Source: a virus
DNA: 22,707 nt
IMG/VR virus record: IMGVR_UViG_3300031712_000016
Location: 1-22,707 of that record
Direction: 5' to 3' (one strand)
Position 1 is the first letter of the stretch, and the number at the start of each line of letters is the position of its first letter. The notes beneath the pieces were generated by a model. That model saw only the letters and a program-made list of their open reading frames with translations, ran no database searches and was not told the origin of the DNA. The position numbers and the translations under genes were made by a program. This document shows, piece by piece, positions 3,463 to 16,620 of the stretch.

Positions 3463-5425
3463 TTACGCTTGTGTAGCGCGTAGGTTGATGACCCATTGGT
3501 CATTAGTGATACGCGGGACTTCAGCGAACTTATACCCAACTGATGCATTAAGCGCCAATGGACCATCGTATATTGGTGGCATTCTGTTACTTTTTTGACC
3601 TATTGCTAGGCGGGGAAACCTCTTCGGATCTCCCTCACTATGTTTCCATAGTGTTCAGACTATCGCATCCTCTTTCGAGGTCTCTTCACTTAGTCGTTCA
3701 CGCTGCTTGCGCTTGCGCCCTGTCACCCAAAAGGGTTTCCAAGTCAATCAGAAGAGATTTTACTACCGCAACACCTTTACGGTAAATGAAGCTTGCGCTA
3801 TAACCATCTTGCTCGATGCAGGCATAAGCTTCCATACCTACACAGAAAATGTTGAAAACATTAGCGCCAAGTGCTGATGCATTAGGGCTTACTGATCCGA
3901 TTGATGAGATCAAGAAGCGAAGGTTACCAATTGAACCCCACTCAGAACGGAGAGCGTTCATTGGTGATGGATATTGGGTCTTTGCGATAAACCCAGCAAC
4001 AGCATCAAGATCACCAGTCAATTGCGTGCTGCAAAGAGCAAAATACGCATCACGAACTGGAGCTGTACCAAATCTATCTTCACCTTCGATGTTATCCATA
4101 ATCGTGTATGCATTGTTATTTAATAATGCACGTACAACTACATCAACATCAGAACGTGTAATTTCCGTAGGGTTATCGCCGTTTACACCGCCCGTACAGT
4201 TAATAAATCCTGCCGTACCAGCAAGCATGTCACGTGTGAGTTGGTCTTCGGTTTGACGAAGGGATACACCAAGACGAGCTGCGCATTCGTTGAGGACAGG
4301 GTCCTGATTTTGACTAATAGAAACTAAGTTTCTATTTTCCTGTTACTTTTATGACCTATTGTAATAGGCGGTAGGTCTTGTTAGTCCCTACTCCCAGTCT
4401 TTCGAAAGGGTTCAGACTATAGCATCTCTTATCGCTAAGAGCCAAAGGGCTTAGTCGTTGCGGCTGTACATTCGTGATATTATTCTGTATAGTAATAGTA
4501 CATATTAAATTACCATCACCACGGGATATTGAGTGAATCGATATAAATATGAACGCAAAGACTACACTATTGCACAAATTGCTTATCTTGCAGGAATTGT
4601 AGACGGAGAAGGTAGTATTTATATAGGAAACTTTAGCTGTAATCCCAAAACAAAACTTCCTTATTTCCAAACTAATATTCAAGTCACCAATACTGATAAA
4701 CCTCTTATAGATTGGCTTATAAATACATTTGGTGGTCTTTATAGTAAACGAACCATCAAACAACATGCTATCAATTCCAGAAAACAAGTTCATACCTGGA
4801 CAATAAGTGGAGAGAGAGTCACACATTTGTGTGAACTTATTTTGCCATATCTTATTGTTAAGATACGGCAGTGCGAAATCATGATAAAAATGCGAGCTAC
4901 TTTTATTCCAAATCACTGCAAAAAAGGTCGCCAAGGAATCCAAACACTTAGCCTTGAGCTTGTTGCCTTGCGCCAATCTCTCATGGATGAAATGCGTAGT
5001 TTGCATATACGAACTCACTCTTATAAAAATCACGGACACTTGCCTCGGGTTGCCATGCCTCAGTTGCTAGAAGAGGTTTAGGGTTTCCCAGTAATCACCT
5101 TCGGTTTATTCACGCCTCAGTGTCAGGAAAGCGTGACTTGCTCATTGAGTTGTACATATGTGCCGTAAAAACTAATACGAGCATCAATATCTACAGCAGT
5201 AAGCAATTGTGCAGGGGGAGTAACACCAGTGTTTCCTAGTGGAACCATTGCGGTTGCAAGAGGATTATACCTACGCATACGAAGCGTGTTACCACCATTA
5301 CGTGGCATTTGCTTTCTCATCGCAGGGATTTTGTGAATCATGTTAGGAACAGGCACGCTCAACAGTTTATAACTAAAGCTCTGCTGAACGGGCGAAGGCA
5401 ACACAGTAGTTGTTGTTATAGCCAT
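3463..5425 (-). CDS. N4-gp56 family major capsid protein, split by two group I introns: join(3463..3579, 3779..4313, 5130..5425)
   Basis: Three exons on the minus strand are 296, 535 and 117 nt. Joined, they give 948 nt, an exact 315-residue protein plus TAA. Exon 1 begins MAITTTTVLPSPVQQSF at ATG 5425 and ends in ...NEQVTL. Splicing makes codon CTT across junction 1 and continues QNQDPVLNECAARLG, as family members do. Exon 2 holds the FINCTGGVNGDNPTEITR and NIEGEDRFGTAPVR blocks and ends FIYR. Exon 3 continues PPIYDGPLALNASVG and ends NLRATQA. Without splicing, exon 1 stops at TGA 5123 (two codons past the junction) and exon 2 runs to TGA 3698 through the small intron. The family forms the HK97-fold shell. 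It is the first gene of an operon with the structured leader at 5426-5650. Splice sites are inferred from P1 pairing, family alignment from memory and reading frame. Confidence 0.92.
3580..3778 (-). ncRNA. group I intron 2 in the major capsid gene (199 nt, no ORF)
   Basis: The 5' exon end UACCGU pairs with the internal guide GCGGUA just inside the intron, giving a 6-bp P1 with a U.G pair at the splice site. P3 is UCUCUUC with GAAGAGA. P5 looks like ACCC-UUUU-GGGU. P7 is GACUA (3695-3691) with UAGUC (3662-3658), inside the typical AACGACUA and AUAGUCUGAAC contexts. P8 is CCUC-GAAA-GAGG and P9 is CACUAUG-GAAA-CAUAGUG, both with GAAA loops. A CCUA-GCAA-UAGG hairpin follows, and the intron ends ...AACAGAAUG with the terminal G at 3580. 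Removal restores FIYR-PPIYDG across the junction. At 199 nt it is a minimal self-splicing form. Confidence 0.93.
4458..4486 (+). promoter_or_regulatory. possible promoter for the antisense endonuclease gene
   Basis: TTGCGG (4458-4463), a 17-base spacer and TATTCT (4481-4486) resemble a weak sigma70 promoter upstream of the plus-strand endonuclease. Overlap with the conserved intron core (P7 lies at 4452-4456) limits how freely this sequence could evolve, so the match may be chance. Confidence 0.3.
4533..5081 (+). CDS. LAGLIDADG homing endonuclease, antisense to its host group I intron
   Basis: 182 residues from GTG 4533 (weak upstream GGGAT) to TAG 5081. A single LAGLIDADG motif is visible at residues 19-28 (LAGIVDGEGS), with the metal-binding acid at Glu26. 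One motif in a protein of this size suggests a homodimeric enzyme that cuts an intronless capsid allele near the insertion site and spreads the intron. A QTNIQVTNTDKPLIDWL-type strand and helix segment follow, as in single-motif families, then a basic C-terminal part. The gene lies wholly inside intron 1 but on the opposite strand, so it cannot be expressed from the late capsid transcript and needs its own promoter. Function is by family homology. Confidence 0.88.
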   Translation: MNRYKYERKDYTIAQIAYLAGIVDGEGSIYIGNFSCNPKTKLPYFQTNIQVTNTDKPLIDWLINTFGGLYSKRTIKQHAINSRKQVHTWTISGERVTHLCELILPYLIVKIRQCEIMIKMRATFIPNHCKKGRQGIQTLSLELVALRQSLMDEMRSLHIRTHSYKNHGHLPRVAMPQLLEEV

Positions 5426-14344: not shown

Positions 14345-15702
14345 CGTAGATCCGAAGGGATATCGTCCCTGAATATGTTGGGTAGGTTTGACTGAGTACC
14401 ATACCGCGCTTCTTGATATTGCCTTTCTCGTTCATCAGCCGACATACCGTCACGAGTCTTTGGCAATGATATCGCAAGATAACGCATAGCATCTGCATAA
14501 TGTGAATTGTAATCATGCAATGGGTGTGATTTATATACTTTCTTCTTTGCATCCCACTCCTGTCTATAACCTTCAAGCGCTTTTATCAATGGAGCACATT
14601 GCTTCTCATCTACCCAGACCTTAGGCAACGTAGTACGAACTGCCTCAATACCATCTATGATGCTCAAATCCGGGGCCACAGTGAACGCTATTCCCAAGTG
14701 CCGAGCTTTCTCTATCCTCGTCATGCCCGTACCAAATTCCCTAACCTTGATATCGTGAGGGGCAATGTGCTTCCCATACTGATACGGCTTCGCCTGCAAT
14801 ACTGAAACGTAGTGCTCTAAACCTTCTTTGTTTTTGTCATAACAATCTATTATACGTACCGTTTGGCCAACGACTTGGAAGAAGATAATGTTGGTCGAAT
14901 CCCTAACGCCAATGTCCCACGCCGTATGGACTTTGAAACCTGGTTCCCACGGGACGACGCTGATCTGGCCTTTGAGGCGCATCCGGTCGAGGCTTTTCGC
15001 ATAGTAGGAGCCTTCGACGCCCATTTCGAAGCTTGTGTAATACTCTTGTTGGATAAGGTCCTCGGACATGATTCCTTCTGCTCGTTCTCGTTCGATTTCA
15101 TGGAGGGGTATATGTTGAGTATCATCGAGGGAGAGCTTGTAGCAGAACCAGTCTGGGTTATTTTGAGCGATGTTGTAGAGCTCCCACAAGTGATTCTTTC
15201 CTCGTGGCGTCGAGAGGAAGAGGGCCCATCCATCATTGGCTGCCAAGATAGGACGCAAGTATTGGTACGCTCGCGGGTCTTGTAACGCATACTCTGAGAA
15301 GACAATCCCTTGAGGGTTGGTACCGACAAGAGAGTCATAGTTGTCAGAACCAACAATCTGAAAGAGTGAGCCATTGGTAAACCTTATCTTCATTTCTTGG
15401 GAGTTAATCGATGCTATTACTTCTTTAGGTATGTACTCGAGTATCCGCTCTCCTGTATTAGTAATCGAATCAAAGAGAATCTTTCTGCCCTGTGAGTATG
15501 TTGGGAATATATAGTAGATGACACAGGTGCGCTTTAAAAGGTAACGAATGCAGAAGTTGAATGCAGTTATGTCCTTGCCTGCCCGTCGAGGCATGATAGC
15601 AAGAACACGCTTATAGCCCTTATTCTCAAGTGCATCAAGAATAGGGAGCTGATATACACGAGGCTTATATTTATTCAGATGTATCTGTGTCGCTACGGTC
15701 AT
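14341..15702 (-). CDS. terL: terminase large subunit
   Basis: 453 residues, ATG 15702. The ATPase domain has a Walker A region MPRRAGKD at residues 37-44, a Walker B-like GIVFSEYA at 132-138 with the acidic Glu137, and the coupling motif LFLSTPRGKN at 161-170. The RNase H-like nuclease domain shows Asp263 in AWDIGVRD and Asp404 in SHYADAMRY. The protein powers DNA translocation into the prohead and makes the genome cuts. Its start overlaps the HNH gene stop (ATGA). The small terminase lies upstream, interrupted by the HNH gene. Confidence 0.92.
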   Translation of the reverse strand: MTVATQIHLNKYKPRVYQLPILDALENKGYKRVLAIMPRRAGKDITAFNFCIRYLLKRTCVIYYIFPTYSQGRKILFDSITNTGERILEYIPKEVIASINSQEMKIRFTNGSLFQIVGSDNYDSLVGTNPQGIVFSEYALQDPRAYQYLRPILAANDGWALFLSTPRGKNHLWELYNIAQNNPDWFCYKLSLDDTQHIPLHEIERERAEGIMSEDLIQQEYYTSFEMGVEGSYYAKSLDRMRLKGQISVVPWEPGFKVHTAWDIGVRDSTNIIFFQVVGQTVRIIDCYDKNKEGLEHYVSVLQAKPYQYGKHIAPHDIKVREFGTGMTRIEKARHLGIAFTVAPDLSIIDGIEAVRTTLPKVWVDEKQCAPLIKALEGYRQEWDAKKKVYKSHPLHDYNSHYADAMRYLAISLPKTRDGMSADERERQYQEARYGTQSNLPNIFRDDIPSDLR

Positions 15703-16232
15703 TGTGCTTGCTCGATTTTATTTGCATGACGACAAGGATGGAGACTTCCGGTCATTCGTCTTAACTGAGATCCGGATCTTGAGGTTTCGTAGCCACATTT
15801 ACAACAACGACAAAGATAATAGTGGAATCTCCATCGATTTTCATTCTCAAGCAGATGTAAGACAAGCCAATTACCAAATTGTTTACCAGGCATATTGTCT
15901 TCTGCCTTGTTTACAGAATTGTTTTCTTTAGCTGTAACCCATCGACAATTATCGGGAGAATATCCCTTATCGTTATCTATTCTATCGATTTGAAGACCTG
16001 ATGGCCGTTCACCCATATCTTCATAGAAGTTTTCAAATCTTAACCAACGGTCACATACGGTTATTCCACGCCCACCATAATATTTATACTTCTTATATTT
16101 GGGATCACTACATCTTGTGATCATAGCAGCCCACACCCTATAAATTGGAGCGCGGGACATTCCATGCTTAAATCTTGGATGATCTTTTCCTCTTTTTATT
16201 TCTCCATCATTGTTCTGTATCTTGGTGCTCAT
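15699..16232 (-). CDS. HNH homing-type endonuclease between the two terminase genes
   Basis: 177 residues from ATG 16232 with GAGAAGAAAA upstream. The HNH-type core spans residues 30-110: IYRVWAAMITRCSDP, YYGGRGITVCDRW, then QIDRIDNDKGYSPDNCRW, the pattern of phage HNH homing endonucleases with an N-x-x-RW end. Residues 115-168 (GKQFGNWLVLHLLE, CRCCKCGYE, GSLHPC) form a second, Cys-rich DNA-binding domain usual in this family. The gene overlaps the small terminase end by 26 bases and the large terminase start by four. Such insertions mark mobile genes; an accessory role in packaging is known for HNH proteins of other phages, but this one looks like a homing type. Confidence 0.85.
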   Translation of the reverse strand: MSTKIQNNDGEIKRGKDHPRFKHGMSRAPIYRVWAAMITRCSDPKYKKYKYYGGRGITVCDRWLRFENFYEDMGERPSGLQIDRIDNDKGYSPDNCRWVTAKENNSVNKAEDNMPGKQFGNWLVLHLLENENRWRFHYYLCRCCKCGYETSRSGSQLRRMTGSLHPCRHANKIEQAQ

Positions 16233-16620
16233 TTTTCTTCTCGGGTACAAGGTTGCTCGTTGGAATCTTTTCAATAACTATGATTTGAGGTCCGCTATTC
16301 AATTCATTTTGCTTATCTCTTAATGATGCGCGCCATTCAGCACTAGCTTTCCATTCTGGGTCGTAATGATGCATGGAGCTTGCAACAATCCCAGCTTCGA
16401 GCTTTTTCTTGATTGCTCCTATTTCTCTCCTGTTACCAATGATACCGCAAGCATTCTCTTGGGCTTCCTTCAAGATAGGGAATGCATCAAGCCACTTATT
16501 CCAGGTACGCTGTCCTATACCCTTTGAGAAGTGAAACTGAGATACCTTAAACGCTTCGGGATCATTGACTGCCCATTCAATTATTTCAGATGCTAAACGC
16601 TCTATTCCTTCATGATTCAT
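16207..16620 (-). CDS. terS: small terminase subunit
   Basis: 137 residues from ATG 16620, preceded by GGAG nine bases upstream. The frame is open to ATG 16797, but that start lacks a good site and would overlap the previous gene by 71 bases; homologues should decide. Residues 1-60 form helical DNA-recognition segments (MNHEGIERLASEIIEW, then VSQFHFSKGIGQRTWNKW). A conserved HYDPEWKASAEWRASL block near residues 92-107 is a pattern I recall in terminase small subunits of environmental phages. It should form a ring that selects the packaging site and recruits the large subunit. The gene lies directly upstream of the HNH and terL genes. Confidence 0.75.
   Translation of the reverse strand: MNHEGIERLASEIIEWAVNDPEAFKVSQFHFSKGIGQRTWNKWLDAFPILKEAQENACGIIGNRREIGAIKKKLEAGIVASSMHHYDPEWKASAEWRASLRDKQNELNSGPQIIVIEKIPTSNLVPEKKNEHQDTEQ

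Follow-up and report, generated by a model that had tools for sequence, protein, structure and literature searches.

The capsid gene of an uncultured phage most probably contains two self-splicing group I introns, acquired separately from a shared pool, the first of them holding an antisense LAGLIDADG endonuclease gene. We put the probability of this reading at about 0.93. The gene lies in a window of 22,707 nt, by which we mean the whole stretch of DNA that was analysed, and occupies 5425 to 3463 of the minus strand. All results were computed from metagenomic contigs. The features discussed below are as follows:

5130..5425, minus strand: exon 1, 296 nt, codons 1-98 and two bases of codon 99
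4314..5129, minus strand: intron 1, group I, 816 nt, inserted in codon 99 (site 98.2)
5110..5116, minus strand: guide of intron 1, GGCGUGA, forming P1 with the exon end UCACGCU (5130-5136), U.G at the splice site (sequence, P1 test)
5098..5104, minus strand: 5' strand of P3 of intron 1, CCGAAGG, pairing with CCUUUGG at 4442-4448 (by eye from sequence)
4533..5081, plus strand: predicted LAGLIDADG homing endonuclease gene, 182 aa, GTG start, inside intron 1 in the P6 region
4415..4456, minus strand: P7 of intron 1, GACUA 4452-4456 / UAGUC 4415-4419, with the P3 3' strand and P8 between (sequence, model match)
3779..4313, minus strand: exon 2, 535 nt, end of codon 99 to codon 277
3580..3778, minus strand: intron 2, group I without endonuclease, 199 nt, after codon 277 (site 277.0)
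3764..3769, minus strand: guide of intron 2, GCGGUA, forming P1 with the exon end UACCGU (3779-3784)
3751..3757, minus strand: 5' strand of P3 of intron 2, UCUCUUC, pairing with GAAGAGA at 3681-3687 (7/7 pairs with compensatory changes in relatives)
3658..3695, minus strand: P7 of intron 2, GACUA 3691-3695 / UAGUC 3658-3662, with the P3 3' strand and P8 between (covariation)
3463..3579, minus strand: exon 3, 117 nt, codons 278-315 and stop

Joined together, the three exons give 948 nt, that is 315 codons and a stop. A search of IMG/VR yielded 80 uninterrupted relatives of the gene. The closest of these, L002, shares 97% of its amino acids and 89% of its nucleotides with the spliced gene along the full length (residues 1-315). 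It aligns without a gap or insertion at either junction, the outcome by which an earlier reading of the sequence alone had proposed to judge the joined protein. We also ran a splice-aware aligner, in which the DNA is scored against a protein profile made from the spliced window protein and intact relatives (115 capsid sequences in all). The aligner was blind to intron structure and its sole preference was for an intron that follows T and ends in G. Intron 1 came out at 5129-4314, in phase 2 after codon 98, and intron 2 at 3778-3580, in phase 0 after codon 277; to the base, these are the boundaries that the sequence-only reading had drawn. With the T/G (U/G) preference turned off intron 1 moved by one base and intron 2 stayed where it was. 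For the protein family the PHROG match was PHROG 1357 'major head protein', and Pfam gave PF25209 Phage_capsid_4 (E=2e-5, 25.4 bits) just under the cut-off of 27. The family name N4-gp56, which had been suggested for the protein, found no support in these searches.

Both introns show P1 with a terminal U.G, P3, P7, P8, a common 3' motif and a terminal G at the 3' end. For the covariation analysis we aligned 38 small introns, namely intron 2 of the window and 37 relatives with reliable ends, and counted P1, P3 to P9 and two further 3' helices, the P3/P7 pseudoknot included. Across the 38 introns 96.5% of the helix cells were paired and 43 of the 50 base pairs had a change on both sides. We observed 444 doubly changed cells compared to a mean of 118 after shuffling, and none of the 500 shuffles reached the observed value. 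When the strands were slid by 1-3 columns the pairing fell to ∼42%. P1 is paired in 100% of the cases because the members were picked for a 6-bp P1; the other helices were not selected in this way. In intron 1 the core parts were seen by eye and, in addition, by the 3' core model described below. P10 comprises 3 bp in intron 1 (UGA/UCA); intron 2 has no contiguous P10, and a shifted GGUG/CACC pairing is possible by eye. Across the family P10 has a mean of 3.2 bp versus 1.1 when shuffled.

A search with Rfam Intron_gpI, proposed at the outset as a check on both introns, gave no match at the gathering threshold for either of them; at E=10 it returned 13.5 bits for part of intron 1 and nothing for intron 2. 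Rfam Intron_gpI is a broad detector and not the definition of the group I class, and it misses the whole intron family, not just the members in the window. As Rfam gave no useful match, we built a family-specific covariance model of the 3' core from 37 family sequences, both window introns among them. In the window this model matched only at the two introns (intron 1: 4336-4460, 79.7 bits; intron 2: 3580-3699, 136.2 bits). The first reading was right on the boundaries, on P1 and P7 and on the small intron without an endonuclease, and we regard the presence of two group I introns in one capsid gene as confirmed. Splicing would proceed by two transesterifications: guanosine would attack at the U of the P1 U.G and the exons would then be ligated at the terminal G. 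Both introns are probably self-splicing and intron 2 would be a bare ribozyme.

A gene broken in this manner could also be a decaying pseudogene, or an assembly artefact with two chance insertions, and the record is indeed one metagenomic contig of 22.7 kb, though nothing specific speaks for such an origin. However, the exons join to an unbroken frame with 97% identity to an uninterrupted relative, independent contigs carry inserts at the same two sites, and the inserts retain a covarying ribozyme. We give this alternative next to no weight.

The open reading frame inside intron 1 lies on the strand opposite the capsid gene, an orientation that had been left out of the earlier account of the gene. 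Its product scores 25.4 bits for the LAGLIDADG_1 domain PF00961 (cut-off 23.1) and the nearest solved structures are I-MsoI (chain E=5e-6) and I-CreI. Compared with five relatives, third-position changes are in excess in its own frame. The protein appears to be a single-motif LAGLIDADG endonuclease of the I-CreI/I-MsoI type, presumably active in cleavage, and intron 1 would be mobile or have been so recently. Among the family introns of at least 350 nt the LAGLIDADG motif is antisense to the gene in 36/96 and sense in 8/96. The orientation follows the site, with sense at sites 12 and 35 and antisense at sites from 88 on; at site 98, the site of intron 1 in the window, all six introns have an antisense endonuclease. 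Being antisense, the endonuclease cannot be made from the capsid message and needs a transcript of its own. This transcript is likely to be made at another time than the capsid mRNA, and such separate timing would keep the antisense RNA from meeting the intron while it folds. Two other kinds of reading frame were encountered. In six relatives (L192, L248, L132, L083, L180 and L134) introns of ∼400-530 nt have sense frames of 100-140 aa that run into the ribozyme core, where several read QPERSKRED; Pfam assigned no confident family to these frames and they are possibly non-endonuclease cargo. Elsewhere in the window a frame at 15699-16274 (minus strand) adjoins the large terminase gene and has strong HNH endonuclease matches in PHROGs; it looks like a free-standing homing endonuclease.

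The two introns belong to a large family. A 21-base motif at the 3' end matched at least 119 viral stretches, most of them from phages that have this capsid gene, with breaks at many positions. With the help of the core profile we placed 223 family introns, and 172 of these form the 6-bp P1 with their own exon, compared to only 16 with the exons swapped. The guide sequence follows the exon to be recognised, so the introns have been re-aimed many times. The 172 guide-matched introns occupy 55 sites of the capsid gene; 28 sites have two or more introns and are well supported, and the sites with a single intron should be taken with caution. We propose that a group of uncultured phages shares a pool of introns and that introns from this pool have settled at 28 or more capsid-gene sites, each arriving by homing or recombination and the guide changing to match each new exon. 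In the whole collection a capsid gene has between 0 and 5 introns. Two introns in one capsid gene had been called unusual, which holds in general but neither for these relatives nor for a crAss-like phage in which five pieces make up the capsid gene (PMC7886860).

In order to obtain a sample that was not selected for introns elsewhere in the gene, relatives were drawn by similarity of codons 138-262. At least one intron was present in 33 of the 75 full capsid genes (∼44%) of this sample and all 57 core matches were on the capsid-gene strand. Among 38 whole records (34-43 kb), 12 of which came from intron or endonuclease searches, 46 of 50 core matches lie by their coordinates in the capsid gene and the other four in the portal gene. 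Introns of the same family were seen near codons 60-67 of the portal gene in L277, L278, L279, L280, L155 and L092, and one interrupts the large terminase gene of L119 near codon 265 (∼10441-10576). The 21-base motif also occurs in four contigs of 59-155 kb without this capsid gene (L086, L087, L147 and L195), in two of them just before a frame resembling a tape-measure protein. In many intron-less genes the matching hexamer is missing: we found it in 3/98 genes for site 277, in 3/74 for site 98 and in 0/93 for site 12, but in 41/94 for site 181. This fits exon co-conversion or the escape of intron-less alleles. Among short intact contigs, a search for spliced capsid sequences gave suggestive cases (L044 and L053), which we do not use here. 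As hints to the host there are four MAG contigs, which come from unrelated groups.

To compare the ancestry of the two introns we aligned their 3' cores, which are 59% identical to each other, about the same as random pairs of the family (mean 57%). Intron 1 groups with the site-98 introns of other phages (68-85% identity), and the nearest core to intron 2 (95% identity) was found at another site in another phage. In a tree of 130 intron cores we counted 86 site changes compared to 104 with shuffled labels, and the site is therefore partly inherited. The nearest neighbour of a core was at the same site in 37/130 cases (6 expected) and in the same genome in 0/130 (0.8 expected). The sequence-only reading had it that one intron gave rise to the other and that the small one now has no endonuclease; the copy would then have been made within this genome. 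That both introns are of one family with a common 3' motif agrees with such a copy, but their core identity is that of random pairs, each has closer relatives in other phages and same-genome nearest neighbours are absent among the 130; we therefore consider the copy very improbable. The sequences show that the two window introns are of separate ancestry, and they were most probably acquired separately.

Many relatives showed a second kind of insert. Between capsid codons 88 and 89 they have an extra 28-54 nt, in most cases with a frameshift or a stop codon as the result; the carriers include L210, L094/L221, L132, L099, L237, L222 and many others, and the window itself is without one. A broad search pattern for such inserts was dropped since its matches were mostly due to chance, and a specific pattern was used instead. 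This found 67 viral stretches, which together with the earlier loci amount to 51 distinct contexts with inserts of 28-41 nt. Other inserts of similar appearance in L205, L099, L115, L137, L084/L120 and L161 were alignment debris and are excluded from the counts. All 51 contexts have P1 UACGGU/GCCGUA with U.G at the splice site and a terminal G, both of which the search pattern demanded; L203, found without the pattern, has the compensatory P1 UAUGGU/GCCAUA. The P10 match is independent of the pattern: the base that lies three positions 5' of the guide can pair with the third position of the next Thr codon in 51/51 contexts (C-G 3, T-A 6, G-C 34 and A-T 8), compared to a mean of 25 and a maximum of 34 after shuffling. 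P10 thereby covaries with a synonymous codon position.

At 28-41 nt these inserts are too short for a ribozyme core. A detectable core was present at most 1.9 kb downstream in 47/51 contexts; of the remaining four, three contigs stop within 300 nt and L276 shows the next P1. In the earlier set a full intron was found at codons 89-124 in all 27 genes with a mini-insert versus 54/160 without (Fisher 8e-12). The mini-exon between insert and full intron forms a helix with the tail of the insert. In the codon-88 contexts 2-3 nt separate P1 from the start of this helix, Px, and 7-8 nt lie between its end and the next 5' splice site, even though the distance to that site is 26, 50 or 86 nt; the spacing applies to contexts with a helix of at least 7 bp, among which L416 misfits as annotated. 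For the 26-nt class (33 sequences) 89.6% of the Px cells are paired, compared to 73.6% with exons shuffled (maximum 80.5%) and at most 49% with strands slid. With the aligner alone we found six more mini-introns in distant capsid genes, at three further sites (codon 81: L104, L130, L199; codon 86: L123; codon 104: L100, L118). These have P1, a P10 of 4-6 bp and a Px of 8-10 bp; in five of the six, 7-9 nt lie between the end of Px and the next splice site.

We think it likely that the capsid genes of these relatives hold satellite introns of 28-54 nt, which have P1 and P10 only and are without a core; a full group I intron follows 26-86 nt downstream. Px would set the two P1s side by side: it begins 1-4 nt after P1, and the gap from its end to the next 5' splice site is 7-9 nt with few exceptions, for any length of mini-exon. 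The core of the neighbour would dock one P1 and then the other, and four transesterifications by this one core would remove two introns and free a mini-exon of 8-28 codons. Early ribozyme work showed that group I cores can work on a separate P1 hairpin in trans. We rejected the possibility that the mini-exon is skipped as part of one large intron: joining phase 88.0 to 96.2, 104.2 or 116.2 breaks the frame and, as the phases differ, the two removals cannot be one.

Alternatively, the mini-inserts could be kept in the mRNA and hopped over by the ribosome in the manner of T4 gene 60. The size of the inserts is close to the 50-nt T4 gap and a hairpin comes after a Gly codon, but T4 bypassing has matched GGA take-off and landing codons (PMC11194080), whereas here take-off would be at GGT and, in the inserts listed, translation would resume after a triplet that has a final G but is not of the GGN type. 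Furthermore the insert of L123 is in phase 1, the group I guides are kept, P10 holds in 51/51 contexts with all four pair types, and the inserts co-occur with a neighbouring full intron (Fisher 8e-12). Bypassing thus seems unlikely, and removal by the neighbour's core is the explanation we favour. A limited full-text search of the open-access literature found no earlier report of core-less mini-introns. If the core of a neighbour splices them, a group I intron can turn into a dependent without a core of its own; to our knowledge this state is known only for degenerate group II-type introns.

A small capsid gene is thus the chief home of one ribozyme family. Target change in group I introns is mostly discussed by comparing introns two at a time, and the set of 172 guide-matched introns, spread over 28-55 sites, offers a natural experiment in it. 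As Rfam misses the family, annotation would report fragments in place of the capsid gene in ∼44% of these phages. An essential and conserved gene such as the capsid gene is a good homing target. It may be a battleground on which co-infecting phages turn their intron endonucleases on each other's capsid genes; under this hypothesis, mutual attack with resident introns shielding their own sites would explain the many sites in one gene.

In phage PhiPA3 the endonuclease of the gp210 intron was shown to interfere with the assembly of a co-infecting phage (PMC11620839). The target there is not the major capsid gene itself, and for the present family competition is only hypothetical. With the introns of Staphylococcus phage Twort and of T4 td, nrdB and nrdD, the present family has in common that one phage gene can have more than one group I intron (two in Twort nrdE), but there the genes are others and the sites far fewer. 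We know of no core-less mini-introns in Twort or T4. Within the crAss-like Zeta group the capsid gene of cMAG OLRF01000054 is divided into five fragments by introns, and group I-type domains were found in 3/4 of its capsid introns (PMC7886860). These phages are large and unrelated to the window phage and their introns were found via endonuclease domains; the sections of that study available to us report neither a catalogue comparable to the 28 sites here nor core-less introns. Another close counterpart is mycobacteriophage LittleE (Cluster J), with a spliced 819-bp group I-like intron in the major capsid gene and a LAGLIDADG-like frame on the bottom strand of that intron (PMC3706429). LittleE has one intron in this gene, and the accessible parts of the report mention no array of sites and no mini-introns; its sister phages have a related endonuclease-free intron in a tail gene. 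LittleE is the one published precedent we found for a bottom-strand LAGLIDADG frame in a capsid intron (PMC3706429).
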